Positions 15,068 to 47,557 of a stretch of 64,000 nucleotides of DNA are shown one piece after another. Source of the DNA: Bacteroidetes bacterium GWF2_33_16. Its GTDB lineage: Bacteria; Bacteroidota; Bacteroidia; Bacteroidales; UBA12077. The stretch's first letter is position 1. Every line of letters starts with the position of its first letter. The notes under the pieces were generated by a model. It saw only the letters and a program-made list of their open reading frames with translations. It was not told the origin of the DNA and did no database searches. The position numbers and the translations under genes were made by a program. The stretch covers positions 23,665-87,664 of the forward strand of contig MEOE01000004.1 of assembly GCA_001768565.1 (NCBI GenBank), in the 5' to 3' direction.

Positions 15068-15080
15068 AGGTACTTGATAT

Positions 15081-17511: not shown

Positions 17512-17598
17512 ACAAAGTAATGATGGATAGAGAAAACAACCTATCTTAATCCTGTTTCGCTAAGACCGTTTTATAAAAATGTATGATGGAATTATAAT
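17512..17598 (-). promoter_or_regulatory. Shared 87-bp upstream element, copy A
   Basis: On the plus strand the element reads ACAAAG at 17512, CCTAT at 17540, TTTATAAAAATG at 17570 and ATTATAA at 17591. The two A/T blocks belong to direct half-sites GACCGTTTTATAA and GATGGAATTATAA, 21 bp apart. Read toward the gene, ACAAAG becomes TTACTTTGT, close to the Bacteroidota -7 box TAnnTTTG. The rest lies upstream, as expected for an AraC activator site. It stands 62 bp before the fusion gene's start. No AraC gene is adjacent. Confidence 0.8.
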
Positions 17599-17601
17599 TA
17601 A

Positions 17602-17894
17602 TTAAGAAGTTAGTTTTATTAATCTTTCATATCCACAATATGGCATATGTTCCATAATATGAAATGAAATTAATTTTTTCCAACTAACGGGAGTGAGCTT
17701 AGATTTTCAAATGCTTCAGTTTTATTTTTACACTCTAGGACCAAAATAGCCGAATGCATTTCGTTAAAATAGATTTCTCTTAAAATACCCTGAAGGTATA
17801 ATTGGTAAACATGGGATGCTTCTTGTTTCAGAGATTTATCTTCCTTCGAAAATTCTAAGTTGCTTTTAGATTTTTCAGCAACTAGAATTTTCAA
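17602..17894 (-). pseudogene. Muconolactone-isomerase-like small protein gene, split by -1 frame change
   Basis: The in-frame product is only 74 residues and stops at 17670 right after SLPLVGKN. Its paralogue at 38282-38566 runs 94 residues. Reading on in the -1 frame gives LISFHIMEHMPYCGYERLIK to a stop at 17602, which aligns with the paralogue's end (MIDFNMLELHSYTGYSRLFK), so the full gene would be 97 codons. The break is at a run of six A's within A-AAA-AAT immediately before TAA. That fits a one-base loss, a homopolymer sequencing error, or a programmed -1 slip. The protein resembles small muconolactone-isomerase/YCII-like dimeric ferredoxin-fold proteins. It is the last gene of the operon starting at 25205. 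Confidence 0.8.
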
Positions 17895-17911
17895 TTTAAT
17901 GTAGTTTTAAT

Positions 17912-18346
17912 CTATTTATTGAGAATATAACTAATTTCTATGTTTGTGTTTCCTTTAATCATTGAATATACTGGACAGTATTTATCCTCTGTAAGATAAA
18001 TAACTTTATCCATATCATCTTTTGTTACATTATCAGAAACTAATTCTATTTCAACAAAAATGTTTTTAAATCCAGTTGGATGCTCTTCTTTTCTAATTCC
18101 TTTTGTATGTATTTCACATTTAGTAATCGATTTATTCATTTTTCGAAGAAAAGTCAATACAGCGGTTCCAATACATGAACCTAAACTCAAAAGTAAAAGT
18201 TCCAATGAAGTATAACCTAGATTATCGCCCAGTGGAGCAATGTAATCGATTGAGATTGGATCGTTTTCATCTACTGTTCCGATGAAATTAAGTCTATCAT
18301 TTACAAGCCTGATTGATGCTTGCATTTCTATTGATTTGTTTTTCAT
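17912..18346 (-). CDS. OsmC/Ohr-family peroxide-reducing protein
   Basis: The 144-residue product keeps both redox cysteines of the OsmC family, C58 in LLLSLGSCIGTAV and C124 in EDKYCPVYSM, in the expected domain positions. Family members reduce organic hydroperoxides using the two cysteines. Sequence form is closer to the YhfA/OsmC-like group than to Ohr. The gene sits 17 bp before the split muconolactone-isomerase-like gene and 55 bp after a lipoprotein hydrolase gene, inside the long operon that starts at 25205 behind element B. This supports an oxidative or electrophile-stress theme for the operon. Confidence 0.9.
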   Translation of the reverse strand: MKNKSIEMQASIRLVNDRLNFIGTVDENDPISIDYIAPLGDNLGYTSLELLLLSLGSCIGTAVLTFLRKMNKSITKCEIHTKGIRKEEHPTGFKNIFVEIELVSDNVTKDDMDKVIYLTEDKYCPVYSMIKGNTNIEISYILNK

Positions 18347-18401
18347 TTTTTTAAGTATTTATAGTTATTATTATTGTTTATAAATAAAATTCAGTATTCT
18401 G

Positions 18402-19460
18402 CTATTGGTTGAATTGTCTTTCAAACCAGCTATATGCCTCGTTTCTCATTTCATTGGTAAATGTATGTTGTCCTAGATTAAAATACTTCTGTTTAATCAC
18501 AATTTCATTTCCTTTAAATTTCTGTTTTTTCATTGCTTTTTCAAAGACTTTTGATCTGTTAATATCAGCAGAAAGCTCAATAAAAGACCTGGGATAAATA
18601 CCCTCAATTACATCATCAAAATCTCCCCATTGTTTAATTCCCGGAATTGTTAGTAAACCACAAAATCCATTCATTGGTCGTAAGTAAGTATCATTATAAA
18701 TATCTGACAATAAAAAACTGCCACATGAAGAACAACCTAATTTAATTCGATCGTCAACATACATTAAAATTCCAGATAAGAAACCTCCTGCAGAATGGCC
18801 TATAACACCTATTTTTTCTTTATCAACTTCCTTAAGTGAACACAGTATATCAATGGCATACTTAAGTTCCATAATTGTCATACCCATCATTGTTTTACCT
18901 TCTGTAATCAATTGAGATGACCTGGCTCCAATAAATAAGTCTTCAGTTAAATAAATTCTTTGCTGGTTATATTCAAGTGAAACAGGAAATGAAGCAAAAT
19001 CATTCCAGTTTTTTGATTTCTGAAGCATTCTGCTTTCAAAACCAAATCTATCAGGGCAAATTACCACATATCCTTTTTTACATAGCTCGAGCCCATAATA
19101 TAAGGAAGAGTCACCATGAATTCCTGCTGGCTCACTTTTACCGAATTCATATGGCCGATGCTCACCATCCTGATGAATTGCAAGTATTCCTGGTACTTTA
19201 CCTTTACTATTATTAGGAATTAAAACATACGCTTGAATTGTTTCTCCAAATAGTTCATACTGAATTAGCTTACGTGTGAATTCTTCAAATTCTTGAATTG
19301 AGATTTCCTTTATTTTTACTTTCCTATTGTTTTGGAAATTGCCAAGTAAAGTAATAAAATCCTGTTTCTTTTTTTCTTGTTTATCTATTGGATTATTTTC
19401 ACAAGAAGCAGTAATTAAAGTGATAACTACAAAAATTATATAACCAAATTTTAGTTTCAT
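18402..19460 (-). CDS. Lipoprotein alpha/beta hydrolase (dienelactone hydrolase/acetyl-xylan-esterase-like)
   Basis: The 352-residue product begins with a lipoprotein signal ending in LITASC (acylated C20), so it is exported and membrane-anchored. The hydrolase domain has the nucleophile elbow GHSAGG (S223), an oxyanion-side motif GILAIHQDGEHRPY, and a late histidine in LGQHTFTNEMR. This arrangement is typical of dienelactone-hydrolase/Abhydrolase_7-like esterases. The substrate is unknown. It lies between acetyltransferase and OsmC genes in the operon behind element B. Confidence 0.87.
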   Translation of the reverse strand: MKLKFGYIIFVVITLITASCENNPIDKQEKKKQDFITLLGNFQNNRKVKIKEISIQEFEEFTRKLIQYELFGETIQAYVLIPNNSKGKVPGILAIHQDGEHRPYEFGKSEPAGIHGDSSLYYGLELCKKGYVVICPDRFGFESRMLQKSKNWNDFASFPVSLEYNQQRIYLTEDLFIGARSSQLITEGKTMMGMTIMELKYAIDILCSLKEVDKEKIGVIGHSAGGFLSGILMYVDDRIKLGCSSCGSFLLSDIYNDTYLRPMNGFCGLLTIPGIKQWGDFDDVIEGIYPRSFIELSADINRSKVFEKAMKKQKFKGNEIVIKQKYFNLGQHTFTNEMRNEAYSWFERQFNQ

Positions 19461-19542
19461 TTTTTCTTAGTTAGATTAATATTTTTAAATAGACTATAAA
19501 TTTTTAGTTAACAACTAAAACAGAAATACCAAATAAGGTTTA

Positions 19543-20160
19543 TTAGGTATATTGTCTTAAATCAAAAATTGGTTTACTCTTTTCTTTTATCGGGAATTGT
19601 TTTTCAAATTCTAATAATTGCTCCTCATTAATTACAAATGCTTCATCATCATAAAATAGGCCCTTTACATTTTTTAATCCATTCTCAATTAATTCTAATG
19701 CCATAAAGGGTTCAAAGTTTTGATTGTCTTTAGTAGCAATTTTAAATTCTTTTGCATTTTTAAATCCAAAGCGATGATAATAACCGGAATTTCCAAATAA
19801 TATCATTCCTTTAAATCCCATTTTTCTTGCTTTTGAAATAGAATAATCTATTAGGATTGTCCCGATTCCTTTGTTTTGTAAAGCAGGAGACACCGATATT
19901 GGACCTACACATAAAACTTCATGCTCTTTTCCAAATTTGTTTTTAATCAATGCTCTTGTTGAAATTATATGGCCAACGATCAAAAAGTTATGAATTGCAA
20001 TTAAATCCAATTCTTTAATATAACTTTTGCTTTTCCTTAAGTTGTGCAACACCAGGTGCTCTTCACATCCGGATTTATATAAATTCCAGAACGTTTCTCT
20101 TGTTAAGTTTTCAGTAAAGTAGAATTCACTTTCATAAATTTTTCTAATAATAAGTTTCAT
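19543..20160 (-). CDS. GNAT N-acetyltransferase (YhbS-like)
   Basis: The product has the acetyl-CoA motif LQNKGIGTILIDYSISKA and the following GNAT block GMILFGNSGYYHRFGFKNA, the pattern of YhbS-like N-acetyltransferases. I prefer the ATG at 20160 (protein beginning MKLIIRKIYESEFYF) to an in-frame ATG 48 bp upstream, because the extension looks non-conserved. The protein is then 205 residues. Substrate unknown. It is 67 bp downstream of a flavodoxin gene in the operon that begins at 25205. Confidence 0.87.
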   Translation of the reverse strand: MKLIIRKIYESEFYFTENLTRETFWNLYKSGCEEHLVLHNLRKSKSYIKELDLIAIHNFLIVGHIISTRALIKNKFGKEHEVLCVGPISVSPALQNKGIGTILIDYSISKARKMGFKGMILFGNSGYYHRFGFKNAKEFKIATKDNQNFEPFMALELIENGLKNVKGLFYDDEAFVINEEQLLEFEKQFPIKEKSKPIFDLRQYT

Positions 20161-20227
20161 AATTGTCTCTTTATAATTTAAAATCTTTCCCCATAAAATG
20201 AACAGCATCAGGTATTTCTTTATACTC

Positions 20228-20653
20228 TCAGGCTGCTTGATCAGCTAATTTGCCCAGCAAGATTTTATCTGTATCAGAAAGCTTTCCATTACGAGATTTA
20301 AGTTCCATATATAGAAAATTGTATATATAATTTAAATGTGCATACATTTTTCTGAACATAGAACCGGTGAGAATCTTGTATGTCGTAAAAAGGATAACTT
20401 TAGTGTTAATTTTTTCAGGCAATTTTTTTGCAAATTCAACCCATGCTTTTTCAGGATGTTGATTGAAAAAAAGAAGGCCTTGAGTCCAGCAACCTAAAAG
20501 TAGGTAGTTGGCATCTTTTAAAATTTCAGGCTGATACTCTTCTATGGATGTTATTGAAACATTCATTTTGTTACTACTTAGATACTCACCTATGGCTTCT
20601 GCATATCTTTTTGTAGTACCTGTTTTGCTATTGTAAATTATAACTGTTTTCAT
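20228..20653 (-). CDS. Flavodoxin-domain protein (HemG-like short form)
   Basis: The 141-residue product begins with an FMN phosphate loop in YNSKTGTTKRYAEAIGEYL (residues about 7-25). It continues with the flavodoxin core (YLLLGCWTQGLLFF, VILFTTYKILTGSMF). It resembles short flavodoxin-domain proteins of the HemG/flavodoxin_5 type but lacks an obvious long insertion. Role: FMN-dependent electron carrier or quinone/protoporphyrinogen-type oxidoreductase; which is not decidable. It is the fifth gene of the operon led by element B, next to an FMN-reductase gene. Confidence 0.82.
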   Translation of the reverse strand: MKTVIIYNSKTGTTKRYAEAIGEYLSSNKMNVSITSIEEYQPEILKDANYLLLGCWTQGLLFFNQHPEKAWVEFAKKLPEKINTKVILFTTYKILTGSMFRKMYAHLNYIYNFLYMELKSRNGKLSDTDKILLGKLADQAA

Positions 20654-20696
20654 TTTTGTACATTTTAATAAAAGTGGTTTTATTAATTTTTTAAAA

Positions 20697-21461
20697 TTAG
20701 CTTCTAATGATTCTGATGGCTAGTTTGTCAAATAATCTGCCACTAAGCCTTTTAAAGAGGTTCAGTTTTACTGGATAGAAATAATCAGATTCAAACCATC
20801 CTTTATCTCTGTAATAAGTGTAATCTCTCCAATTTTCATTAAGCATTTTATACATACTTGTACGGGCCATTCGAAATACCATTATCCACCATAAGGATGG
20901 TGTAGGAAAGTCTTTTTTTATTAATTGTTTATAGAATTTTTTACTTTGTTTTTCCACAATTCTGTCAGAGTCATTCTGCGATTTTTCAGTCATTGGTTCA
21001 AGGGTTTTTATAACACAGCCTTTAACAATATTAAAGCCCATGCCCTTACCAATAAAGTCGAGATATTTAACAATGTCTTCACCTTTTCCGATTCCTTGCA
21101 CAACGATGCTTGTAAATGTTTTACCAAAGAAACTGGGGCGATGAAACTTATAAGCCAAACGATCAATAAATATTTTCATCAAAGATGAAACCTGGAATGA
21201 ATAATTCGGAGATGAAAAAATCACACCATCTGAATTCACCATTTTTTCAATTAGAGTATCCCGGTCATCTTTAAAAGGGCAGAATTCTTCGCCTTTATCA
21301 AAACAAATTCTGCAACCTTTGCATGTGCCTAAATTATAATCCCCTAAACGGACAATTTCATATTCAATATTACCTAGCAACTGCAGATTTTGCAGTAATT
21401 TTTCTGAGGCATTGTAAGAATGTTGCTTCCTACCACTACCAATAAATGCTGTTACTTTCAT
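20697..21461 (-). CDS. NADPH-dependent FMN reductase/iron-sulfur flavoprotein-like
   Basis: The 254-residue product has the flavodoxin-like fold of NADPH-dependent FMN reductases: FIGSGRKQHSYN at the start, SSPNYSFQVSSLMKIFIDR in the middle. The cysteine group CKGCRICFDKGEEFC at residues about 47-61 is the spacing seen in iron-sulfur flavoproteins and related quinone reductases. A C-terminal extension of about 70 residues is basic and aromatic. Likely role is NAD(P)H-driven reduction of quinones or nitro compounds. It lies 23 bp after an exported hydrolase gene in the element-B operon. Confidence 0.85.
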   Translation of the reverse strand: MKVTAFIGSGRKQHSYNASEKLLQNLQLLGNIEYEIVRLGDYNLGTCKGCRICFDKGEEFCPFKDDRDTLIEKMVNSDGVIFSSPNYSFQVSSLMKIFIDRLAYKFHRPSFFGKTFTSIVVQGIGKGEDIVKYLDFIGKGMGFNIVKGCVIKTLEPMTEKSQNDSDRIVEKQSKKFYKQLIKKDFPTPSLWWIMVFRMARTSMYKMLNENWRDYTYYRDKGWFESDYFYPVKLNLFKRLSGRLFDKLAIRIIRS

Positions 21462-21484
21462 ATCATTTAATTTTGAGATAAATA

Positions 21485-22354
21485 CTATTTTTCAAAGAAC
21501 CAAAATCTATCAATCTTCTTAAATGGAGTTAAAAAAAAGTCACTTACAATTTGATTAACTAATTCAGGCTTCTCCCATCTTAGAACATGAGTCGTTCCGG
21601 GTAAAATACACAAATAAGAATTTGGTAAAGCACGAAAAAGAGTTAGTGTATGTTCATCCCTGATTAAATCATGGTCTGCTGCCAGAATCAATGAAGGTGT
21701 TTTGATTTTAATCAGTTGTTGTATTGTAAAATTTGGATACTTTACTAAAACAAGTTTAAGTTTCTCAAACTTAATTGAGTCTTCCTCCCGGCTTTTCGAA
21801 GCTTCATAAAGGAAATTGTTCATCGCAGGATTAAATTCATTGTATTCCCATTTTTTTACTTCATCGAGCGCCCTTGAGAAAATAGCTGTTGAATCGCAAA
21901 GAAAATTTCCGGAACCAATCACCATTTTTTTTATTTTTTCTGGATGAGCATAAGCTAATTCAAGCCCAATAATTGCACCATCACTATGGCCATAATAATA
22001 AACACTATCCAGGCCTAGTGAATCCAATAAAACAGCCAAATCAGATGCCATTTGTGCATAAGATAATTCTTCTGATGAATCACTTGTTTTACCCTGTGCT
22101 CTGCTATCAACAGCATAAACCTTGAATTTTTTTGAAAAATCCTTTACCTGGTAATAAAAGCTCTTCATCGATCCATTATTACCATGAACTAATAATAAAG
22201 GATGACCAGAACCATAGCATTCAAAATACATTACAATATCATTAACTTTAATGTATCTTCCAGTAGAATCATTTGCTCCAAGTTTCTCAAATTCTTGTGA
22301 ATAAATCTGGGAGATTTGAAATGTTGCCAATAATAAAATAATTAGTTTCTTCAT
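21485..22354 (-). CDS. Exported alpha/beta hydrolase
   Basis: The 289-residue product has an N-terminal signal peptide (MKKLIILLLATFQISQIYSQ). An alpha/beta hydrolase fold follows: oxyanion motif LLLVHGNNGSMKSF, nucleophile elbow GHSDG with S124, acid in LILAADHDLI, and histidine in GTTHVLRWEKPE. It resembles the periplasmic esterase/haloperoxidase-like hydrolases frequent in Bacteroidota. The gene is 47 bp downstream of the intact DHCW cupin and 23 bp upstream of the FMN reductase gene, within the element-B operon. Confidence 0.88.
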   Translation of the reverse strand: MKKLIILLLATFQISQIYSQEFEKLGANDSTGRYIKVNDIVMYFECYGSGHPLLLVHGNNGSMKSFYYQVKDFSKKFKVYAVDSRAQGKTSDSSEELSYAQMASDLAVLLDSLGLDSVYYYGHSDGAIIGLELAYAHPEKIKKMVIGSGNFLCDSTAIFSRALDEVKKWEYNEFNPAMNNFLYEASKSREEDSIKFEKLKLVLVKYPNFTIQQLIKIKTPSLILAADHDLIRDEHTLTLFRALPNSYLCILPGTTHVLRWEKPELVNQIVSDFFLTPFKKIDRFWFFEK

Positions 22355-22401
22355 GACCTTTAATTATAAAAAAGATTAGTAACCATTCCTTTAAAATATT
22401 A

Positions 22402-22734
22402 TTAATCAATTATTAATACAGAACACCCGGTTTTAGATATTACTCTATGTGCACTTGATTCGTTATCTCCGAGGCATAACGACATACCTTTTTTTAAATA
22501 TATTTTGTGTTTGTCTTTGATTTCGATGATCACAGAACCTTCTAAAAGATGAATAATATGTCCACGACAGCACCAATGATCTGCAAGGTACTCTTGTGAA
22601 TACTCGATAATTCTTATTCGTATATGTTCTGTTTCGAAAGTTCTGCTATATGCCCAGCCTGTTTCTCCAGAATACTTTGTAATAGGTACGTTGTCCCAAT
22701 TAATTTCCAAACTTTGAATATTTGTTAAATTCAT
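22402..22734 (-). CDS. DHCW-motif cupin protein (variant ADHWC)
   Basis: The 110-residue product is a single small cupin: IRIIEYSQEYLADHWCCRGHIIHLLEG carries the conserved histidines and a D-H-W-C string, and the second cupin motif is in LCLGDNESSAHRVIS. Members of this small family are presumed metal-binding, with unproven function. The second gene of the element-B operon, it starts 35 bp after the DUF5916 gene. A broken paralogue lies at 9246-9593, and comparing the two shows which residues were lost there. Confidence 0.85.
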   Translation of the reverse strand: MNLTNIQSLEINWDNVPITKYSGETGWAYSRTFETEHIRIRIIEYSQEYLADHWCCRGHIIHLLEGSVIIEIKDKHKIYLKKGMSLCLGDNESSAHRVISKTGCSVLIID

Positions 22735-22769
22735 ATTTTACAACTTAGAATAATTAATTAAACTAATTT

Positions 22770-25205
22770 TTATCTTCTTCTGAAACTCTGATAATCCAAA
22801 TAATAAATAGCTTTTAAAGAGATGCTATTCATTTTGGATTGATTGAATGTATAATCAATATTTTTGAAATAATTATCAGGTAAAATGTTATCTCTGTCAA
22901 GTATTGAGTTCTTCCAAACTAAAGTCAGGTCACTTCCAGGAGCAAATCTCCAGGTTAATCCCAAATCAATATTGAAAGAGTTAAAACTTATGTTATGATT
23001 ATTATTATAATCACTTTCAGCAAGATGTCCATCTTCTTTCAATGTATAAAACTCCCTGTACTTTACTGTTGACCAATAGTGTCGTATAATCAAGTTTACA
23101 TTTAGATTTTTAGCTATTGAATATCTGGCATCAATGCTGTTTTCAAGAACCATGTTGTTTCTTTGGCCAAACCTTATAAGGCTGTCAATTCTTGCAAATC
23201 CCACAGAATTAAATGTCTTATTGTATCGAATAAAATATCCTACTGAAGATTTATTGTTTATGCGATATTTTGGATTAAATAGGATCCAATATTGTTCAGC
23301 AACATGGTTGTCTATTTTTCCTTGATTGCTGTATCCTGTAAATATTTCATATTTAAGTGCCTTTCTTGAATCAGATGAGAAACCCAATTCAAAGAATCCA
23401 TATGAAGGTTTAGAATAATATCTGCCCGGTATTCTTGGTTCATAATAATCTTTCACTCCACTGGGAAAAACATTTAAATTAAGTCCAATTGATGAGTTAT
23501 TCCTTAAAGTAGCCATAGTATAGAAGTTAATTCTATATCCTGTAAAAACTGATGGTTCAAAAAGGCGATTAAAATAAATACTAAAATAATTCTGTAACCT
23601 GTTGAATTTCCAGAAAGGCTTATTTATATTGTAAACCAGTTTTAATCCTGTTTCAGTAAAATTATTATTAGTTATATAACCCAGATCGTTTGGATTAAAT
23701 TTCTCTGTCATTAAATTGTTAAAAGCATAAAATTGGAATTTACCACCTATTTTAGCTAAAGTTATATTTAGTTTACTTCCAAGAATAGGGTTCGCATTTG
23801 AAGAATCATATTTTTGAGATAAGGCACCAGTGGAAATAAGAGCCCAATTATTCCCTTTATCTGCAAATTTTAAATCAAATCCCGTGACATTTGCCATATT
23901 TGATCCGTCTCCATAATAGGCATTAGTATTTATTAAATTTATAAATGATGTCTGTCCTATTGTCTGAGATGCAACCAATATATTATAGTTTGTCCATGGT
24001 TGTGTTAATACTTCTTTTTCATCTCCTATATCATTTTTGGCTTTGGCATAGGTATTAGTAGTAGTGGCATTAAAAACTCCAATTCCTAACCCATAATTCG
24101 ATCTTCCTGTTAATTTGATTGCATTAATCATTTTGGTGGCAGTGGGATTTTCGATAATTTCTTCATTTGGTGCAAGTTGTGAGGAAACTTTATAGTAGTC
24201 TAAAGGCATTCCTCCAATACGTCTCGAATAAAAAATATTTGCAGTATTAAATAGTTCTGTTCCTTCGGTAAAAAATGGCCTTTTTTCATCATATTTTGTT
24301 TCGTAGGGTGTAAGATTTAAAACCCTATTGTCAGATTGTACCTGCCCAAAATCAGGAATAAGTGTAATGTCTAAGGTGTAGCTTTTGTTTAGTCCTACTT
24401 TTACGTCCATTCCTCCATTTAATAAATAGGTTGAATTATTCATTCCATCTATGTTATATGGATAATGCTCATAATAATTAGATAAGTAGGGTGTTAACGA
24501 CAATCGTAATGGAGGATTAATATCTTTAATTCCTGAAAGGTCGCCTGATTGATTTATCCATTCATCGTTGTTTATATCAACAAAATTCCATGTTGACCAT
24601 TCTTCGAGTCGTTTGATATTTCTCCAACAATTCATTCCCCATGATCTTCCATCAGATTTTGGTATACGAATTGCAGAATAAGGAATATACATTTCTACTA
24701 CCCAGCCTAATTCATTTATTTTTACAGCACTTTCCCAAACAGCATCCCACAAAAGATCAAAAGTTGTTCCTTTGTGTTTTTTATCAATTTGTATCCCTGC
24801 AGCAGTAATTTTAAAAATTAATTCGTTTTGTCCGTCATTATATGGACTAATACAAAAAGCAAAGCAATCTGCATTTACATTTTCATAGTCTCTGGGTCCA
24901 GCTTCATATAATATACTATCTGGATGGGCATCGTATAACATGGCACCTATATATATACCTTTATCATTATATAAAATTTTTACATCGGTTTGATAGGTAG
25001 GTTTGGCAAGTGGTGTTGGTTTACATACAATAAAATCAGTGCCTGAATTAGCTGGTAACCAGCAACTGTCTGTTAATGATCCATCAATAACAGGAGGGTT
25101 GGAGATTTTTAATACTTCAAGATTTTTCTTTGAAGATTGTCCATAACAATAGCTTATTGAAATAAATGCTATTAGTAAAATGTTGATTAGTCTAATTGAT
25201 TTCAT
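22770..25205 (-). CDS. DUF5916 outer-membrane protein with CBM9-like domain
   Basis: The 811-residue product has a signal peptide (cleavage near SYCYGQ). A CBM9-like beta-sandwich follows at residues about 35-235 (NPPVIDGSLTDSCW, GWVVEMYIPYSAIRIP). The rest is a DUF5916 region with beta-barrel character, containing alternating aromatic strands and ending in SLKAIYYLDYQSFRRR. The family motif DEKRPFFTEGTELF is present. Proteins of this kind are predicted outer-membrane barrels of unknown substrate, common in Bacteroidota. It is the first gene of a nine-gene operon and starts 31 bp from element B, so an uptake, export or surface role for the operon's substrate is plausible. Confidence 0.88.
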   Translation of the reverse strand: MKSIRLINILLIAFISISYCYGQSSKKNLEVLKISNPPVIDGSLTDSCWLPANSGTDFIVCKPTPLAKPTYQTDVKILYNDKGIYIGAMLYDAHPDSILYEAGPRDYENVNADCFAFCISPYNDGQNELIFKITAAGIQIDKKHKGTTFDLLWDAVWESAVKINELGWVVEMYIPYSAIRIPKSDGRSWGMNCWRNIKRLEEWSTWNFVDINNDEWINQSGDLSGIKDINPPLRLSLTPYLSNYYEHYPYNIDGMNNSTYLLNGGMDVKVGLNKSYTLDITLIPDFGQVQSDNRVLNLTPYETKYDEKRPFFTEGTELFNTANIFYSRRIGGMPLDYYKVSSQLAPNEEIIENPTATKMINAIKLTGRSNYGLGIGVFNATTTNTYAKAKNDIGDEKEVLTQPWTNYNILVASQTIGQTSFINLINTNAYYGDGSNMANVTGFDLKFADKGNNWALISTGALSQKYDSSNANPILGSKLNITLAKIGGKFQFYAFNNLMTEKFNPNDLGYITNNNFTETGLKLVYNINKPFWKFNRLQNYFSIYFNRLFEPSVFTGYRINFYTMATLRNNSSIGLNLNVFPSGVKDYYEPRIPGRYYSKPSYGFFELGFSSDSRKALKYEIFTGYSNQGKIDNHVAEQYWILFNPKYRINNKSSVGYFIRYNKTFNSVGFARIDSLIRFGQRNNMVLENSIDARYSIAKNLNVNLIIRHYWSTVKYREFYTLKEDGHLAESDYNNNHNISFNSFNIDLGLTWRFAPGSDLTLVWKNSILDRDNILPDNYFKNIDYTFNQSKMNSISLKAIYYLDYQSFRRR

Positions 25206-25235
25206 TTCATTATTTTTTATTGGTTCTTTTTTTGA

Positions 25236-25322
25236 ACAAAGGAAATATTGAAATGAACGAAACCCTATCTGAATCAGGATTCAGACAGACAGAATTATAA
25301 AAATGTCAGATGGAATTATAAA
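25236..25322 (-). promoter_or_regulatory. Shared 87-bp upstream element, copy B
   Basis: Plus-strand landmarks are ACAAAG at 25236, CCTAT at 25264, ATTATAAAAATG at 25294 and ATTATAA at 25315. The direct half-sites are GACAGAATTATAA and GATGGAATTATAA, 21 bp apart. Read toward the operon the first box is TTCCTTTGT, the -7-like position. It is 31 bp from the DUF5916 start codon. All internal spacings equal those of copies A, C, D and E. Confidence 0.82.
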
Positions 25323-25429
25323 TATTTAGGTAATGATTATATTAGTAATGTTGGGTATTTCGATTAGAATTTAATAAGAAGATATTTCCTGCAAACAGAT
25401 TTACTTTTTTCATTATAAATAATTAGCAA

Positions 25430-39374: not shown

Positions 39375-39390
39375 AGTTCTATTGTTTTAA

Positions 39391-39882: not shown

Positions 39883-39908
39883 TTTATTAGGCTTTATAAA
39901 AGTTCTAA

Positions 39909-39995
39909 GCAAAGTAAATCAGTAAATCATAAAAAGCCTATCTGATTTATAATTTGGAAAGATAGTTTTATAAGATGATCTGATAGATTTATAAA
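39909..39995 (-). promoter_or_regulatory. Shared 87-bp upstream element, copy D
   Basis: Landmarks are GCAAAG at 39909, CCTAT at 39937, TTTATAAGATGA at 39967 and TTTATAA at 39988. The half-sites GATAGTTTTATAA and GATAGATTTATAA are the closest pair of all five copies and lie 21 bp apart. It is 27 bp from the preferred flavodoxin start and 57 bp after the end of AraC regulator 3. Confidence 0.82.
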
Positions 39996-40051
39996 AAAGG
40001 AATACAAAAATACTTCAAACCAGTTTGTTAAAGCAATATTGTTGGCTATTG

Positions 40052-41158
40052 TTATTTTATAGATTTATATTGAGTGGGTGTTAAACCGGTAAATTTCTTA
40101 AATGCATTATTAAACGCAGAAAGGGTATTGAACCCACACTCGTATGCAATACTTGCAATTGTATAATTTGAATTTTTTATGTCAGTTAGCATTTTTTTTG
40201 CTTCTTCAATCCGATATGAATTGATGAAATCATTGAAATTACATTTAAAATACTCGTTAATTACCTGGGATAAAATATGAGGTGTAATGTTTATTTGTTT
40301 AGCAAACAATCCAAGTGTAATATTATGATCCTTATAAACTTTGTCCTCATTAACTGTACAAATTATTTTCTCCTTTAATTTTAAAGCCTCCGATACTGGT
40401 AAAGCAGATTTATTATATTTAGAAGTATACCAGTTTAAATTAGTAATCTTTCCAGATTTTAACTCAATAAACAATAAGAAATAAATTAAGATTGAATAAA
40501 ACACTGTTTCTGGGGAGTAGGTATAGAATATATTCAGATTTAAAAAAGAATAAATCTTTACATTGGTTAGAATGAAAATAAAATTTATTACATCTAAAAT
40601 CCACAATAGAGAGAACATTATAACAATGTTTTTAAGGGCATTAAAGTTAAGCTCTTTAAGATTCTCTTCTTGTAGACGAGTAATTTGTATTCTCTTTATA
40701 TGCTGAACAGAAACAACTATATAAATAATAAATTGACATAAAACAACTGTATGTTTTGTGATATAAATCGAATACGTGTAACTTGAGTTGTAAGCAAAAT
40801 AAAATTGAAATGTGGATATTACAATGAAAGGAATAGCATGTAATATATCAGTAACTTTTAGTGAATAATTTTTAATTGATATGGATCTTAAATATAAGTA
40901 GAATAATGGTCCAACTAAAGAACTTGCAGAAATTGCATAAAAAATAATCGGCAAGTTTAGGCTTAAATCGAAAGCATTCTGAAAGTTTACCAATAGAAAT
41001 CTTATGATTCGAAATGCAATTATTATAAGAAACGAAAAAAGCAATAGATTAGGAATAGTATTTTTACTTCGATGAAACCAAATATAAATTGAAAGAAAGA
41101 GAGCATTAATTGCACCAATGCTGCAAAAAATTATAAAAATGATTTCTCCTAATTTCAT
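40052..41158 (-). CDS. Membrane-anchored AraC-family regulator 3
   Basis: The 368-residue product has about seven membrane helices (residues 1-235). The C-terminal AraC DNA-binding domain follows at about 265-365 (LGLFAKQINITPHILSQVIN, FNTLSAFNNAFKKFTGLTPT). The protein ends soon after this domain. It is transcribed toward element D, 57 bp downstream, and is the likely regulator of the flavodoxin/PhzF operon. The AraC helices closely match regulators 1 and 4, the sensor half much less, which suggests one shared operator and different signals. Confidence 0.92.
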   Translation of the reverse strand: MKLGEIIFIIFCSIGAINALFLSIYIWFHRSKNTIPNLLLFSFLIIIAFRIIRFLLVNFQNAFDLSLNLPIIFYAISASSLVGPLFYLYLRSISIKNYSLKVTDILHAIPFIVISTFQFYFAYNSSYTYSIYITKHTVVLCQFIIYIVVSVQHIKRIQITRLQEENLKELNFNALKNIVIMFSLLWILDVINFIFILTNVKIYSFLNLNIFYTYSPETVFYSILIYFLLFIELKSGKITNLNWYTSKYNKSALPVSEALKLKEKIICTVNEDKVYKDHNITLGLFAKQINITPHILSQVINEYFKCNFNDFINSYRIEEAKKMLTDIKNSNYTIASIAYECGFNTLSAFNNAFKKFTGLTPTQYKSIK

Positions 41159-41346: not shown

Positions 41347-41961
41347 TTACCAATTGTTATAATGAATATGTTCTGAAATAGAAATACTTTTTTTCTTAGG
41401 GATGATTGCATCATCCTGTTTATAACCTATTGGAATTATCGATGCTACTTCAAGATCGTTAGGTATATTAAAAAGCAATTTAATATCATCTGTTTTTTTT
41501 GGTATATAGGTAACACCATAAACATCATGCTCAGCAAGGCTTAATAGAACATTTTCAATGCATGTCCAAACTGAAGCCAAACAATTCAGATCGTAAATTC
41601 TTTTAATATTTTTAATTGGTGTTTTGGGTTTATAAACTACCATCAAAATTAGTGGCGCATCAAGAATCATTGATTTCTGCTTAGGGATTGCATATTCATA
41701 CATAGCTTTTATTGTGACATCATTAAAAACAACTTGTGAGTCTTTTTGAATATCTCTTTTTGTGCCCAGATTCTCGGCATTAATTAATTTAGCTTTATCT
41801 TCAGTTGTTTTAAGGATTATGAAATCCCATTCTTTAAGATGGTTATATGATGGAGCTTTAAAACCATTTTCAATTGCATAGTTAATAATTTCGATAGGTA
41901 TATCAATATCTTTAAACTCTCTGATTGTCTGTCTTTTTTCTATTACTTCTTTTAGTTCCAT
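41347..41961 (-). CDS. Nitroreductase-family protein
   Basis: The 204-residue product has the FMN-phosphate motif RQTIREFKDIDIP at residues about 9-21, GFKAPSYNHLKEWDFIIL for the flavin isoalloxazine, and the final EVASIIPIGYKQD block of small nitroreductases. The family reduces nitro groups, quinones or enones with NAD(P)H. It is the last gene of the seven-gene operon behind element E, after a 164-bp gap following the acetyltransferase gene. An IS- or gene-free 188-bp gap separates its end from regulator 3. Confidence 0.9.
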   Translation of the reverse strand: MELKEVIEKRQTIREFKDIDIPIEIINYAIENGFKAPSYNHLKEWDFIILKTTEDKAKLINAENLGTKRDIQKDSQVVFNDVTIKAMYEYAIPKQKSMILDAPLILMVVYKPKTPIKNIKRIYDLNCLASVWTCIENVLLSLAEHDVYGVTYIPKKTDDIKLLFNIPNDLEVASIIPIGYKQDDAIIPKKKSISISEHIHYNNW

Positions 41962-42125
41962 TATTTGTAAATTAATTTATTTTGACATTTTTTTGGTAGT
42001 GTTGTTTGCATGTATGAACCATTTTGTTGCCTAGGTGATTTATGGCCTAAAAAGTGCTATTTGATCAAAAGAAATAACCTACACGAACCTACCCTGCAAA
42101 GGCTTATAAATGCTGTTATACGAAG

Positions 42126-42842
42126 TTATTTTAATTTAATCCAACTTGTTTTGCAATCTATTTTAAAGCCAAGTTTAGTTACAAGATTAGTCGATGCAAA
42201 ATTATCAGGTACAATATTACCAAAAATAGGCTTTTTTTCTTTTTTTTTCATTTGAATTAAGCCTAATAAGATATCTAGCCCATATCCTTTATTCCTATAA
42301 TCTTCAAGGACATGAAGAAACCCAAGTGCTCCATCATCATGTGTGAAACCCCAAGCAACAAGAATATTATTCACAAATATACCAGCAGAAATATCTTTAC
42401 ATAATCTATCTTTAATATATTCTACCGAAATATAATCTTTATAGTCTGAATTATCATATATAAATTGGGCATAGGATTTGTCAATTTTAACAATGTTAAA
42501 TTTTGGTAAATCTATAAAAATACTTTTTTCAAGAATAAATCTATTCGTTGTCATAATCCAATCTACAGCTCCATGACTTAGAATAATTGGTATCATCCAA
42601 TCTTCAACAGAGAAGTAGTATTTTGTTTTCATGTAGTTTCTGGCAAGTAATGATGATAGCTCAACTTCTGAAGAACTCGAAATATGAGCCCATAAATGAT
42701 CGCTTTTACCTAAAATTAGAACAGAGTTGCCTTCAATATAAAATTCTTTAACCGGATAATTGGAGAAAAAACCCAAAACAGATACATTTTTGTTAGGATT
42801 TGTTTTTAAGCTTGATAGAATTGTATTGTCCATTATTTTCAA
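42126..42842 (-). CDS. GNAT N-acetyltransferase (FR47-like)
   Basis: The 238-residue product has a variable N-terminal half and a C-terminal GNAT core: GALGFLHVLEDYRNKGYGLD with the acetyl-CoA loop, and NIVPDNFASTNLVTKLGFKI, the typical FR47-like end. The N-terminal domain may bind the acceptor, as in glycine-N-acyltransferase-like proteins. Substrate unknown. The gene begins 37 bp after the RibD-like reductase gene in the element-E operon. Confidence 0.85.
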   Translation of the reverse strand: MKIMDNTILSSLKTNPNKNVSVLGFFSNYPVKEFYIEGNSVLILGKSDHLWAHISSSSEVELSSLLARNYMKTKYYFSVEDWMIPIILSHGAVDWIMTTNRFILEKSIFIDLPKFNIVKIDKSYAQFIYDNSDYKDYISVEYIKDRLCKDISAGIFVNNILVAWGFTHDDGALGFLHVLEDYRNKGYGLDILLGLIQMKKKEKKPIFGNIVPDNFASTNLVTKLGFKIDCKTSWIKLK

Positions 42843-42879
42843 TTATTTATACTCCAATATAAAACTTATGTAAATACTA

Positions 42880-43542
42880 TTAACTATTACTTAATTTATA
42901 AGTAATCCATAAATAACCATCCTTAAACAATTCACTGTGCGTGCCTTCAAGAGTAATTGGTTTATTTACTCCTTCAAATAAATTAGTAGAACTCTTTCCT
43001 ATTATCTCCGGTGAAATAACTAAACTAATTTCATTAACCAAATCATTGTTTAATAATATATTTCCTAACTTACTGCCGGTATCAACCAGGATAGTATTTA
43101 TTTTATATTTTTTTGCTAAAACTTCAAATGCATTTTTAAAATCAGCATGATTTTCACCTGAAATAATATAGTCATATTGTCTATCATCCAAATATTTCAA
43201 ATAATTTTTTGGTGTTTTTCCAGAAACCAAAATAATGACATCTCTGCAAAATTCAAATCTTCGTAAAAGATGCAAATGACCTTTTAATATTCCATGTGTA
43301 TCTGGAATTACCCAGTATGAAAGAAACTTATCTTTGTTTGGTTTCAAAAAATCAGCCTCTGTTTCAATTTGCAGGGATTGTCCAAACATTTCAATGCCTG
43401 ACTTTGCAGTATTTGAACCTGCCATATATGCTTCTGCCTTATATGAATTTACAATTTTATAATGTAGTTCCATATTAGGTGTAAGGCCAATAAATGAACA
43501 ATCTAAACTTATTGAATTGTGAAGTATTACTTTTGTTTCCAT
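42880..43542 (-). CDS. RibD C-terminal-domain reductase (dihydrofolate-reductase fold)
   Basis: The 220-residue product begins VILHNSISLDCSFIG and has AEAYMAGSNTAKSG, GHLHLLRRFEFCRDVIILVSG, and the NAD(P)H motif ILVDTGSKLGNILLNNDLV. This is the RibD C-terminal fold, a dihydrofolate-reductase-like fold lacking the RibD deaminase. True RibD reduces a pyrimidine intermediate of riboflavin; stand-alone members have unknown substrates. As the genes around it encode flavin enzymes, a role in flavin or small carbonyl reduction is possible. It follows the ferredoxin/nitroreductase gene by 20 bp. Confidence 0.85.
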   Translation of the reverse strand: METKVILHNSISLDCSFIGLTPNMELHYKIVNSYKAEAYMAGSNTAKSGIEMFGQSLQIETEADFLKPNKDKFLSYWVIPDTHGILKGHLHLLRRFEFCRDVIILVSGKTPKNYLKYLDDRQYDYIISGENHADFKNAFEVLAKKYKINTILVDTGSKLGNILLNNDLVNEISLVISPEIIGKSSTNLFEGVNKPITLEGTHSELFKDGYLWITYKLSNS

Positions 43543-43562
43543 AAATACCTAATTTAAACTAA

Positions 43563-44471
43563 TTAATCAATCCAAGTTATTTCTACTTTGCGCTCGGGAA
43601 TACTCTTTAGAGTAATTGATGGATAGCCTATAGTCATAGCAGCATAGCATTTATGACCCTTTGGTATTTTTAAAAAATCAGCAAGTTTAGTAAATCCCTT
43701 CAAATGATCTCCAGCGGCTGCACCTTGTATTAATCCATTCCAGCAAGTACCTAATCCAAAGCTTTCTGCATAAAGCTGAACAAGGAATAGTGCTGTATCG
43801 CAATCTGTTTGTGGCGTGGACGAATTCATTGGTGCATGAAAAAACAAAGCAATTGGTGCATGATAAGTTATATAATCATTTCCATTCTCATATTCATTTA
43901 ATCTCATTTGTAAATCAGGAACTACAGCAATTCCAGCTTTGGCTAAATCAGAATATCTGGCCACAAATTTTAGAAACCAGCTATTTAGCAGATTAACTGT
44001 TTTCTGCATATAATCTACAGTCATCGACAGAACCACTTTCAAACTGTCTTCACCAGATACTATTGTGACATTACGTGACCAACCGACCCGATGATGGGGA
44101 CTTCCTGGTGCATATCCGGCAATATCTAAAATTTTTTGAATCAATTCTTTTGATGGGACTTCCTTTCTGTAATTCCTTATTGACCTACGTTGCGAAAGAA
44201 ATTCAAAAGCTGTTTCTGAAGAAATTGGTTTTGAGTTTTTAATTGATTTAAAACCTTTAGATTCAAAACCATTGTGATTGATTGATTGTGTTGGACATAT
44301 AGAAATGCAATGCCCACAGAGGACACATTCTTCAAGATGAATAACGTCTACCTTACTTTGATCTAATACAGCAAAATTCTTAGTTGGACAAATTTTTACG
44401 CATAATAAACATTTTGTACATTTATCTGTGTCTACTGAAATTACGGGTGTTTTTAAATATTTTGTATCCAT
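43563..44471 (-). CDS. Ferredoxin-fused nitroreductase
   Basis: The 302-residue product begins with a 2x[4Fe-4S] ferredoxin domain: C18, C21, C24, C28 and C49, C52, C55, C59, each set ending in CP. A nitroreductase domain follows (SQRRSIRNYRKEVPSKELI, GYAPGSPHHRVGW, and FGLGTCWNGLIQGAA). Such fusions reduce flavin-bound substrates with ferredoxin electrons and are common in anaerobes. It is the fourth gene of the element-E operon, 63 bp after a membrane-anchored hydrolase gene. Confidence 0.92.
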   Translation of the reverse strand: MDTKYLKTPVISVDTDKCTKCLLCVKICPTKNFAVLDQSKVDVIHLEECVLCGHCISICPTQSINHNGFESKGFKSIKNSKPISSETAFEFLSQRRSIRNYRKEVPSKELIQKILDIAGYAPGSPHHRVGWSRNVTIVSGEDSLKVVLSMTVDYMQKTVNLLNSWFLKFVARYSDLAKAGIAVVPDLQMRLNEYENGNDYITYHAPIALFFHAPMNSSTPQTDCDTALFLVQLYAESFGLGTCWNGLIQGAAAGDHLKGFTKLADFLKIPKGHKCYAAMTIGYPSITLKSIPERKVEITWID

Positions 44472-44534
44472 TTCTAATTCTTTTAATTAATTGTATTAAA
44501 ACCGATTTCTATATATTAATTGGATTTAGTTTGC

Positions 44535-45659
44535 TTAGTTTTTATCAGCGAGATTGCATGTATTATTTAAAACGTCTTTTTCGATTACTTCTATTACCTT
44601 TTTTGGTTCTTCAAATAGCGGACTATGAGCAGATTTATCGAAAGTATAAAATCCTTTGACGGGGGCTTCAATTTTATTAAAATAATCCTTTGCCAAATTG
44701 ATATTGACAGTTAAATCATATTTCCCGCTAAAAAAATAGATTGGAATATCAAGTCTTTGAACTTCTTTAGTGAAATCGCTCAATAGTATTTCTTTAATCA
44801 GATTTGTTTTTGGTCGAAAGAAGAATTTTGATTTCCAGATTTTAATTTTTTCGGATAGGGTATAGGCTCTGCAAGTCCAAACAGGAATAAAAACTCCCGA
44901 GAAAATAGATTTCATATTGTGCATAGTTCCAATGCCCAATTCATGCATATATTTATCTCTAATAACTGAATTATAAAAAAGAATAATTGATGAGTCTGAT
45001 TCTAGAACATTATATTTTTTTAATTCTTCTACCTTTTTTTGATTTCCAGCCAAAGTATATTGTTCTAATAAGTATTTATAATTAATTCTTTCCGATTCAG
45101 TTTGCTTTGTAATCTGCGCCATGGCAATATATGCACTATATAATTGTGGTTCTCTGGATGCAGCCAAAAGAGCAATAGGAGATCCTCCAGAATGAGCTAT
45201 CATATATATTCTTTCTTTTCCGAATCTTTTCCTTAAATAATTTGTTACCTCAATAGCATCTGTTACCAGCTGATTGAGATTCATGCTTTGTATAGTAACA
45301 TCTCGAGAATATGAAAGTCCACCACCACGTTGTTCCCAATAGCATACTGTAAAATAATCTTCAAGTCCAGGATTATATTTGTCGATCAAAAAATAATTTG
45401 GAAATACTGGTCCGCCATGTACATAAAGTAATACAGGATTGTTGATGTTTTTACTTTTAATAAACATTCCCTGCCTTACGCCTCCGATTGGAATAAATAA
45501 TTTTTCTGAAATACTGCCAGTCAAAATATTGCCTCTTTCATCCAAATACTTTTCTGGTTTACCGGGACTTATTATTATTAAAAGAGAGAGCACTATTATT
45601 CCCAATCCGAATAATAATGATATTGCGATTATTGCCATTTGTTTTTTAAGTTTTTTCAT
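44535..45659 (-). CDS. Membrane-anchored alpha/beta hydrolase (proline-iminopeptidase-like)
   Basis: The 374-residue product has an N-terminal membrane helix (IAISLLFGLGIIVLSLLIII), the oxyanion motif LLYVHGGPVFPNY, EQRGGGLSYS, and nucleophile S157 in MIAHSGGSPIALLA. The HGGP motif and arrangement match the S33/proline-iminopeptidase-like hydrolases. The catalytic histidine is in FDKSAHSPLFEEP. It is probably extracytoplasmic and tethered. It lies 33 bp after the ICMT-type gene and is the third gene of the element-E operon. Confidence 0.87.
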   Translation of the reverse strand: MKKLKKQMAIIAISLLFGLGIIVLSLLIIISPGKPEKYLDERGNILTGSISEKLFIPIGGVRQGMFIKSKNINNPVLLYVHGGPVFPNYFLIDKYNPGLEDYFTVCYWEQRGGGLSYSRDVTIQSMNLNQLVTDAIEVTNYLRKRFGKERIYMIAHSGGSPIALLAASREPQLYSAYIAMAQITKQTESERINYKYLLEQYTLAGNQKKVEELKKYNVLESDSSIILFYNSVIRDKYMHELGIGTMHNMKSIFSGVFIPVWTCRAYTLSEKIKIWKSKFFFRPKTNLIKEILLSDFTKEVQRLDIPIYFFSGKYDLTVNINLAKDYFNKIEAPVKGFYTFDKSAHSPLFEEPKKVIEVIEKDVLNNTCNLADKN

Positions 45660-45692
45660 TATAATCTATCAAATTTAATGCTATGGACTATA

Positions 45693-46382
45693 TTAAAAAA
45701 TATGTGGAATTAAAAGTTTCTTTACTTTGGTTTTATAGTCCTTATAACCCTCCAATTCATTTTCCAACGTATTATCTTCTAGAATGGTACGTATTATTAT
45801 CAAAATAATAGATAAACCAGAAGGAATTAATGCCCAAAGAGAACCCAAAACTAAGGGTGTTGCTAAAGTAAAAGCAATCCCCCCTGCATAACCTGGATGT
45901 CTTATAAATCTATAGGGACCACTTGTACAAATTTGATGACCTCTGTCGGACTGAATTCTTACTACAGTCGAAAAAAATGCATTGCTGCTTCTGGCCCAGA
46001 TAAATATTAAATAACCTATTATAAATAATCCAGATGCAATTATATAAAAGTATAAAGGCAAATAAGATGAATTATGAATCCTTCCAGCATCCAGCGATGC
46101 AATTACAAGTGTAAGCAAAAACGAGATAGTTGAAAATACCCAATAAATTTTATCCCACGATTTTGTTCCCGGTCCTGGTTTTAGCCTTTCCTTTATCAAC
46201 TCTGGATTATTAGCAATAAATAGCAATGAAACCAGCATCATAATGATATTTATCGATAAGTATAAAAAACCTTGCCAATAAGTTATTCTTCCTGATAGTA
46301 GAAAAAGAAATAATGCCATTCCTATAGTGATTATAAAACCCTTAATTAGTGCTTTTATTACTATCCTGATAGCGGTATTCAT
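45693..46382 (-). CDS. Isoprenylcysteine carboxyl methyltransferase-family membrane protein
   Basis: The 229-residue product has about five membrane helices and the full ICMT/PEMT signature: SGPYRFIRHPGYAGGIAFTL and, near the end, EDNTLENELEGYKDYKTKVK. The RHP motif that is altered in the relative at 27424-27909 is intact here. These enzymes methylate membrane-bound carboxyl or amine groups; no prenylated cysteine substrate is known in bacteria. The gene starts 26 bp after the CPBP gene, in the element-E operon, again pairing an ICMT-type enzyme with a CPBP protein. Confidence 0.88.
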   Translation of the reverse strand: MNTAIRIVIKALIKGFIITIGMALFLFLLSGRITYWQGFLYLSINIIMMLVSLLFIANNPELIKERLKPGPGTKSWDKIYWVFSTISFLLTLVIASLDAGRIHNSSYLPLYFYIIASGLFIIGYLIFIWARSSNAFFSTVVRIQSDRGHQICTSGPYRFIRHPGYAGGIAFTLATPLVLGSLWALIPSGLSIILIIIRTILEDNTLENELEGYKDYKTKVKKLLIPHIF

Positions 46383-46408
46383 AGGTAAATGAATTAGGTA
46401 TTAAGTAG

Positions 46409-47416
46409 TTATTTCGGAAAATTTTTCTTCCACATTTTATCAGTAAATACAAATATTATTGAAAGTACAAGAAGTAGTAAAGAAGATAATACATAGCTTC
46501 TGGTCAAAAATAAACTGGTGGTATTTCTGGTTGCATGAAGAAATAAAACTGGAATTAAGCTTTTATTCGACCTGTTATAAAGCCATGTAAAAACTATAGC
46601 AGAAGGGATATCAAATATCCTGATTAGGAAACCATATAATCCAAAAGGATAAACGCCCATTATGTGTAATGGTAAATGCCATAAACCCCAAATTGCACCG
46701 ATAATAATACTTGCATAAAGTGGGCTGTATTTATTTTGCATTTTATTTAAAGCAAAGCCTCTCCAGCCAATTTCTTCGTTAAGTGGACCTCCAAAAAATA
46801 AATACCAGATAAAAGATTCAAAAACAATAAAGAATAATGGCAAATTGGGCCAGGTGGGTTCTGGTGATACTTCCATTCTAAAAACCTGTGCTAATTGAGT
46901 AGATAGATAAATCATTAATGGCCATAAAAGGATTGAAATTATGAGAGAAAATAGCTTTATTTTTTTGTTAAAAATGAGCCCAATTAATTCCCTGACGTTG
47001 TCTTTTTTTGAGAAAATATTGCTTAATAAAATTGCACCTAATGATACTATCACGATATCAACTATAATTAGTTGTAAGCTTATTGTGTGTTTCCAACAAT
47101 AATGATCAAGTAACTCAATACCAAAAATGATACTAAACAATACAAAAAAGAGAAATACCTGCCGTGTAATAGGGAATTCGTCTGAATTATATTTGTTTGT
47201 AAAGTTTGTAATAATTAATGCAGACATGGAAGGCCCAAATGCAGCCACCAATAGCCATCTACTTAAAATTGTCTGATTTTCAATATTAAAAAACGAAACG
47301 AGGTAATAAATAACCCAGGTTATGAAAATTGACATCAAGAAAAAGATGCTTACTTCATGTTTACTAATAAAAGATCTGCTAAGCAGAAGTTTTTCAGGAT
47401 TAATATTATTGTTCAT
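46409..47416 (-). CDS. CPBP-family intramembrane protease
   Basis: The 335-residue product has about eight membrane helices and the CPBP/Rce1 motifs: NEEIGWRGFALN (EExxxR), GLWHLPLHIMG with the helix histidine, and FLHATRN. In eukaryotes Rce1 cleaves the CaaX tail and ICMT methylates the new end. Here a CPBP gene is directly followed by an ICMT-type gene. The parallel is suggestive only, since no prenylated substrate is known. It is the first gene of the operon behind element E. Confidence 0.9.
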   Translation of the reverse strand: MNNNINPEKLLLSRSFISKHEVSIFFLMSIFITWVIYYLVSFFNIENQTILSRWLLVAAFGPSMSALIITNFTNKYNSDEFPITRQVFLFFVLFSIIFGIELLDHYCWKHTISLQLIIVDIVIVSLGAILLSNIFSKKDNVRELIGLIFNKKIKLFSLIISILLWPLMIYLSTQLAQVFRMEVSPEPTWPNLPLFFIVFESFIWYLFFGGPLNEEIGWRGFALNKMQNKYSPLYASIIIGAIWGLWHLPLHIMGVYPFGLYGFLIRIFDIPSAIVFTWLYNRSNKSLIPVLFLHATRNTTSLFLTRSYVLSSLLLLVLSIIFVFTDKMWKKNFPK

Positions 47417-47470
47417 TTTTAAAAGTATTAGTTGATTATTATAATTCGTTATGCCTTTTTAAATGCATAG

Positions 47471-47557
47471 ACAAAGTAATAACACAACTAATAATTGACC
47501 TATTTAATCCACGATTCAGTCTGACTGAATTATAAAAATGTAAGTATTAAACATTAA
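47471..47557 (-). promoter_or_regulatory. Shared 87-bp upstream element, copy E
   Basis: Landmarks are ACAAAG at 47471, CCTAT at 47499 and ATTATAAAAATG at 47529, with a poor second A/T block AACATTA at 47550. Only the first half-site GACTGAATTATAA is good, so this copy is the weakest, yet the 28- and 30-bp spacings are the same as in the others. It is 55 bp before the CPBP start and 56 bp after the end of AraC regulator 4. Confidence 0.75.

Follow-up and report, generated by a model that had tools for sequence, protein, structure and literature searches.

The stretch of DNA analysed here (the window: 64,000 nucleotides of contig MEOE01000004.1 from Bacteroidetes bacterium GWF2_33_16, with a GC content of 30.6%) carries five copies, A to E, of a 93-bp element in which repeated putative operator sites precede a promoter-like TTTG box. 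All five copies are located on the minus strand, between genes, and point at the genes downstream of them; the same region holds four genes for AraC-type regulators with predicted membrane domains. The elements, with their sites listed from the distal to the proximal one, are the following:

Element A: 17508..17600, minus strand; sites at 17580-17600, 17559-17579 and 17538-17558; TTxCTTTG box at 17513-17520.
Element B: 25232..25324, minus strand; sites at 25304-25324, 25283-25303 and 25262-25282; TTxCTTTG box at 25237-25244.
Element C: 30682..30774, minus strand; sites at 30754-30774, 30733-30753 and 30712-30732; TTxCTTTG box at 30687-30694.
Element D: 39905..39997, minus strand; sites at 39977-39997, 39956-39976 and 39935-39955; TTxCTTTG box at 39910-39917.
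Element E: 47467..47559, minus strand; sites at 47539-47559 (degenerate), 47518-47538 and 47497-47517; TTxCTTTG box at 47472-47479.

The initial annotation of the window had described three boxes in fixed order, (A/G)CAAAG, CCTAT 28 bp on and wTTATAA 30 bp further, and this order and spacing is exact in all five copies (17512, 25236, 30686, 39909 and 47471). With up to three mismatches allowed, the pattern matched seven times in the real window, namely the five exact copies and two matches with three mismatches each (19634 and 61122); 100 dinucleotide shuffles of the window gave a mean of 0.99 matches and 4 at the most. The copies align without gaps across their 93 bases and, as had been claimed, differ elsewhere (52-74% pairwise identity). 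The distance from the TTTG box to the start codon is 27-62 bp.

A sequence-only model of the element was run on the organism's own 4.33-Mb genome (36 contigs), where 150 of 4998 first-look candidates were scored. Elements A-E reached 62.2-79.3 bits, element B being the highest-scoring copy (79.3 bits), and no further comparable copy was found there, as the 19 other listed matches (E<=10) scored at most 16.1 bits. Only A-E are thus strong in this genome, and the many random or coding copies that the annotation had named as speaking against an operator did not appear.

Three repeats and a promoter-like box

Together with four copies from a second genome (G793; contigs L025 and L161, see below), nine elements were stacked by 21 bases. 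As we read the stack, the repeat units are TTTTTATAATTCnATCTGACA, TTTTTATAATTCnGTCTnnCT and GAATCATGATTCAGATAGGCT, followed by a spacer and TTnCTTTG. The self-similarity profile of eight elements peaks at offset 21 (0.398, the next value being -0.07), and the autocorrelation of the best 14-column window in the same eight peaks at 21 and then at 42. These two peaks indicate that a third repeat ends in CCTAT, which reads ATAGG toward the genes. The AraC-type 21-bp spacing that had been suggested therefore agrees with both the profile and the stack, while the proposal of CCTAT as a separate box beside two repeats fits less well than three 21-bp repeats. The two repeats had originally been written as GAyrGwwTTATAA: the proximal one is present in all five window copies, and the distal one, 21 bp on, occurs in A, B and D, in partial form in C (AAGTGATTTATAA) and not in E, where it is degenerate.

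The distal repeat is also degenerate in two of the three copies on contig L025 (L025b and L025c) and weakened in the third (L025a), and two loci of other lineages described below, L027 and L170, show two repeats each. These observations would fit a sub-case that overlaps our preferred explanation, in which only sites 2 and 3, the standard dimer site of an AraC-type protein, are functional and the distal repeat is vestigial or accessory. The intact distal TTATAA core in A, B, C, D and the L161 copy, which was held out of the model, speaks against it, and we give this sub-case appreciable weight, short of an even chance.

Mean pairwise identity among the nine elements is 0.70 in the operator and 0.83 in the box, compared with 0.29 in the spacer, of which 18 of the 19 columns were measured, and with 0.30 and 0.38 for the two flanks. 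The spacer between ATAGG and the box is nevertheless 19 bases long in 9/9 elements. As boxes and spacing are kept while the sequence of the spacer diverges, selection appears to act on the sites and their spacing, and the likeness does not look like recent copying. The selection on the site that had been proposed for the window is supported by the G793 copies, which keep the site although their spacer and flanks and most of the genes behind them are different. The same figures bear on the explanation that the element is a dispersed repeat, of the type of a miniature inverted-repeat transposable element or a repetitive extragenic palindrome, with its likeness due to recent duplication. Five copies within 30 kb in one orientation and an IS5-type transposase fragment nearby would suit such a repeat. 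The boxes are more alike than the flanks and the spacer is not, the copies of the second genome precede orthologous or other genes, and the scan of the organism's own genome gave no further strong copies, which together make a dispersed repeat extremely unlikely.

The box reads TTnCTTTG in eight of the nine elements and TTTATTTG in one, with TTTG at the inferred -7 position and ATAGG at the inferred -33 in all nine. Placing the box at -7 puts ATAGG at about -33 and the centres of the sites at about -43, -64 and -85. In the available portion of PMC7366714, the sigma-ABfr promoter of Bacteroidota is given as TAnnTTTG at -7 with TTTG near -33. The resemblance of the first box to this -7 element, as noted in the initial annotation, stands for TTTG (9/9) and fails for the TA, which is missing from the box; the element also departs from that promoter in having ATAGG at -33, as might be expected if it is activator-dependent. 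TTTG without TA, combined with ATAGG at -33, fits an activator-dependent promoter and does not prove it.

A function of the element as RNA, either as terminator of the upstream gene or as a leader structure, was weighed on the same copies. Three of them are located closely behind a gene, and in the third site of element B the inverted repeat CTGAATC-CT-GATTCAG (25289-25264, 11 pairs, 3 G-C) was picked as terminator-like, in a region with 4 terminator-like hairpins found against 3.4 expected. This was the only one of the five elements picked, with neither A nor any of C, D and E (in 30000-48800) among the hits. Seven of the nine elements were folded and gave ordinary z-scores (-1.5 to 1.2), and nothing in the window matched Rfam at gathering score. 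The repeats precede the TTTG box, and the genes upstream of A and B end about 310 and 180 bp away. An RNA function is accordingly very improbable.

Predicted membrane AraC-type regulators

The four AraC-type regulators encoded in the window are the following:

AraC E: 47613..48716, minus strand; seven predicted transmembrane (TM) helices (residues 3-233) and an AraC DNA-binding domain (Pfam HTH_18, 1.6e-18).
AraC D: 40052..41158, minus strand; paralogue of AraC E by alignment (HTH_18, 1.2e-19).
AraC C1: 30817..31929, minus strand; paralogue directly upstream of element C (HTH_18, 2.2e-19).
AraC C2: 31983..33080, minus strand; in tandem upstream of C1, with no element of its own (HTH_18, 2.6e-19).

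The AraC/HTH_18 domain is C-terminal in all four proteins (E-values 1.2e-19 to 1.6e-18). Elements C, D and E follow the last base of an AraC gene at 42, 54 and 53 bp, within the 60 bp that the initial annotation had given, and with two copies of G793 a total of 5/9 begin 42-56 bp after a membrane-AraC gene. The DNA-binding domains of the four window proteins are 63-72% identical and their membrane parts 23-37%. A shared DNA-binding domain joined to divergent membrane domains suggests several sensors converging on one operator.

In the AlphaFold2 model of AraC E, a C-terminal AraC domain is preceded by seven long helices, which we take to be membrane helices; the predicted local distance difference test score (pLDDT) is 84. 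Pfam searches of the four AraC proteins returned only helix-turn-helix (HTH) domains: nothing credible was found in the membrane parts, no seven-transmembrane (7TM) family was matched there, and no kinase or receiver was detected, which sets these proteins apart from the hybrid two-component systems (HTCS). A profile match connects residues 128-241 to TM5-7 of rhodopsin (E 0.0099), and the 7TM domain is tentatively predicted to fold like a G-protein-coupled receptor (GPCR). A bolder version of our explanation, by which a bacterial 7TM receptor of GPCR fold fused to an AraC domain would read the triple-site operator, with four such receptors of different membrane domains acting on the same five redox clusters, is tentative and we consider it rather unlikely.

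PADLOC gave no defence-system match for the 8 proteins given to it. An origin as phage or plasmid cargo was dropped: a scan of viral contigs found no relative, coverage of 80% of AraC E is reached in none of the 384 plasmid records with a match, and the 8 records listed match in the DNA-binding part only. Between an HD-domain gene and AraC C2 lies the IS5-type transposase fragment (33197-33529, minus strand, 110 aa, below the family cut-off), beside a gap of 764 bp.

No AraC gene lies next to element A or B. This favours a rival explanation in which some other dimeric regulator, or an alternative sigma factor, recognises the element as a promoter and the AraC genes are merely linked to it. Each repeat core is near-palindromic (centre scores 10.3 and 8.2), so a different DNA-binding protein could read it. 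Set against these points are the register of three direct repeats at 21 bp, the gap of 42-56 bp past AraC genes in 5/9 copies, and the recurrence of this core behind AraC genes of other lineages. A regulator other than the AraC proteins is in our view unlikely, though less so than a dispersed repeat or an RNA.

Copies in a second genome

Four more copies of the element were found in a metagenome-assembled genome labelled Ignavibacteriaceae (G793). Its 7-kb contig L025, which holds the best relative of the window AraC genes in the genome scan, carries three of them, to which the model built on the window copies alone gives 55.8, 36.8 and 36.0 bits. The fourth copy, on the other contig (L161), was held out of the model refitted on the window and L025 copies and scored 63.8 bits; it sits between a membrane-AraC gene and a flavodoxin gene, which is followed by a gene for a small protein resembling that at 22402-22734 of the window. 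The AraC proteins of G793 are 62% identical to AraC E and 61% to AraC D, and the element starts 56 bp after the orthologue of AraC E and 51 bp after that of AraC D.

The genes after these AraC-linked elements differ from those after E and D in the window. A DJ-1/nitroreductase gene is preceded by an element in both genomes, while the LCM-type methyltransferase has an element of its own in G793 and is the fifth gene behind element C in the window. Between the two genomes the operators are thus retained, whereas most of the genes that follow them have been rearranged. G793 is the sole other genome found with strong copies; the module may have been transferred horizontally, or contigs may have been mis-binned. 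Sixty other genomes of its family gave no strong match and two of 22 bits. No strong copy was found among 24 other genomes of the family of GWF2_33_16, nor among 392 other genomes sampled from its order in a scan with stricter filters and 10 candidates scored per genome. Weak order-level matches, one each in 5/392 genomes (21-24 bits), were rejected, all lying inside unrelated open reading frames (ORFs); a crude rule had flagged two neighbours as AraC-like, but these are a TIR/SIR2 and a YfhO protein.

The operator core in other lineages

The core GAWTYATRAWTC was sought at 11 or more of 12 positions within 140 bp after the stop of 121 AraC genes (three duplicates removed; Markov expectation 0.018 per locus). 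It was found after 7/12 genes with LSAF in the helix of the second HTH motif (HTH2), after 5/19 with [LI]S[ST]F and after 4/90 with other residues, counts that include the AraC of L127, which has no aligned residues in the alignment. The AraC relatives were the best 80 of at least 440; L035 and L052 were left out for lack of a stop, as were 8 in which the walk to the stop ran far. AraC homologues from metagenomes (P0002-P0062) are 51-68% identical. The second set comprised 42 non-own rows, of which 29 with loci were used, L176 and L183 being dropped.

At the L170 locus (G831, of another class), found by protein search alone, TCTGACTGAATCATAAT and TCTGACTGAATTATAATTCTGTC closely follow the AraC gene at a distance of 21 bp from each other. 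In Fulvivirga aurantia (L027) the core follows the AraC gene, and a DJ-1/PfpI gene comes next, separated by a run of N. At both loci, the first gene found behind AraC and core encodes a DJ-1/PfpI protein with TPR matches (L027:2684-3823 and L170:2682-3830). A fusion of DJ-1 and nitroreductase occurs behind element C and behind one L025 element. In L045 and L079 (Marinilabilia and Paludibacter), which are also membrane-AraC relatives, the first 130 bases after the AraC stop show a different 21-bp direct repeat (GAGACTTC / GACCTC type) followed by TTTGCA, as though this layout also occurred with another specificity.

A 21-bp rule for all membrane AraC genes was tried and rejected. Matches of at least 11/14 occurred at offset 21 in 4/85 loci, compared with 0-2 at other offsets; the second set gave 1/27 at offset 21 and 2 at offset 22, and the third set 0/50. 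Given these counts, such a general rule is not claimed.

Gene clusters behind the elements

The genes that follow the five elements, with operon extents inferred from strand and gaps, are these:

After element A: 13198..17450, minus strand; FemAB/aminotransferase fusion, nitroreductase and CAAX protease-like protein; gaps of 13 and 82 bp.
After element B: 17912..25205, minus strand; DUF5916 protein, 110-aa protein without Pfam match, alpha/beta hydrolase, FMN reductase, flavodoxin, GNAT protein, S9-like protein (below cut-off) and OsmC; gaps of 19-82 bp.
After element C: 25508..30645, minus strand; DJ-1/PfpI-nitroreductase fusion, methyltransferase, unknown protein, PEMT-like protein (below cut-off), LCM-type methyltransferase and methyltransferase, the last of which may be separate; gaps of 22-281 bp.
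After element D: 37406..39882, minus strand; flavodoxin (ATG at 39882), PhzF, unknown protein and F420_oxidored/P5CR-like protein.
After element E: 41347..47416, minus strand; CAAX protease-like protein, ICMT/PEMT, hydrolase, 4Fe-4S nitroreductase, RibD-like reductase and FR47 acetyltransferase, then, after a 164-bp gap, nitroreductase.

A flavodoxin-, nitroreductase- or FMN-reductase-type gene stands behind each of the five elements, in agreement with the earlier description of the clusters as redox operons. The gene families suggest that the clusters serve in detoxification of redox-active, probably hydrophobic compounds that would be sensed in the membrane.

The fusion protein that follows element A (15081-17450, minus strand, 789 aa) joins a FemAB/GNAT-like part to a class I/II aminotransferase. 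The ORF at 39391-39912 (minus strand) opens inside the TTTG box of element D; its likely start is the ATG at 39882, which would leave a leader of about 20 bases. A cupin label considered for 22402-22734 and its L155 relative was dropped for want of a Pfam match.

Proposed mechanism and comparison with known systems

We consider it probable that the 93-bp element is a promoter with three 21-bp-spaced sites for AraC-type activators bearing a predicted 7TM sensor, and that these sensors converge on a regulon of five clusters. Several observations weigh against this explanation. Strong copies were not found in the genomes searched in the family and the order, the -7 box is devoid of TA, the repeat cores are near-palindromic, and one hairpin in element B looks like a terminator. 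Elements A and B are found without an adjacent AraC gene, as AraC C2 is without an element. The link between LSAF and the core was partly seen on loci that had shaped the motif, and without the rows of the window and G793 it amounts to 3/6 (p 0.015). In a test fixed beforehand on another class (n=350 named beforehand and n=380 run, yielding 244 genomes; 68 new AraC genes, that is 82 loci minus 14 already seen), the one new LSAF AraC had no core and 5/67 non-LSAF AraCs had one, and there was no 21-bp excess in the first 50 parsed loci. With one LSAF protein, this out-of-sample test neither confirms nor refutes the link.

According to the proposed mechanism, a signal would reach the 7TM domain, upon which the cytoplasmic AraC domain would bind adjacent sites that share one face of the helix and are centred at about -85, -64 and -43. 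Site 3 runs into ATAGG, which takes the -33 position normally held by a TTTG box. ATAGG in place of the -33 TTTG leads us to propose that sigma is recruited by the activator, in a class II-like manner, to the TTTG at -7. The four AraC paralogues, acting through one operator, would in this way switch on the five clusters of a local detoxification and redox regulon.

In E. coli, AraC binds the direct-repeat half-sites araI1-I2, which are 21 bp apart, the proximal one overlapping a basal promoter element. The element described here has the same 21-bp direct repeats with the proximal one overlapping a promoter element, and it probably works like an AraC class II operator. E. coli AraC differs in being a soluble arabinose-binding regulator with two half-sites and a sigma-70 promoter. 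CadC and ToxR are membrane one-component activators with one TM helix and a winged-helix domain; the window proteins likewise appear to hold a membrane-tethered DNA-binding domain within one protein, but their TM helices are predicted to number seven and the DNA-binding domain is of the AraC type.

The part of PMC3878776 available to us describes the motifs of AraC-type HTCS regulators of Bacteroides as direct repeats whose sites are separated by 21 bp on average, and proposes that close HTCS paralogues share one motif. As far as that part shows, the two systems have in common direct repeats of about 21 bp, an AraC-type reader and promoters near the regulator gene. The element differs in its three repeats, in the rigid spacing to the TTTG box and in preceding redox instead of glycan genes, and its regulators carry a predicted 7TM domain in place of periplasmic sensor, kinase and receiver. 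The initial annotation knew of no description of the operator. The 21-bp repeat spacing is already in print (PMC3878776), whereas for the operator itself, as for a 7TM-AraC regulator, no description was found among the titles and abstract openings listed from literature outside subscription journals and preprints, or in the accessible portions of PMC3878776, PMC11253607, PMC7366714 and PMC1183210. As far as these searches reach, the third repeat, the rigid link to the TTTG box, the predicted 7TM-AraC regulator and the confinement of the regulon's strong copies in this genome to 30 kb are new.

If the proposed explanation is true, the element provides a predicted cis-element for predicted 7TM-AraC one-component regulators and could serve as a reporter for finding their signals. 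Several sensors would act on one operator, which would remain constant while the genes behind it differ between genomes, and a membrane signal would be linked directly to redox genes. Should the GPCR-like fold be real, a receptor of that shape would act directly on a promoter.

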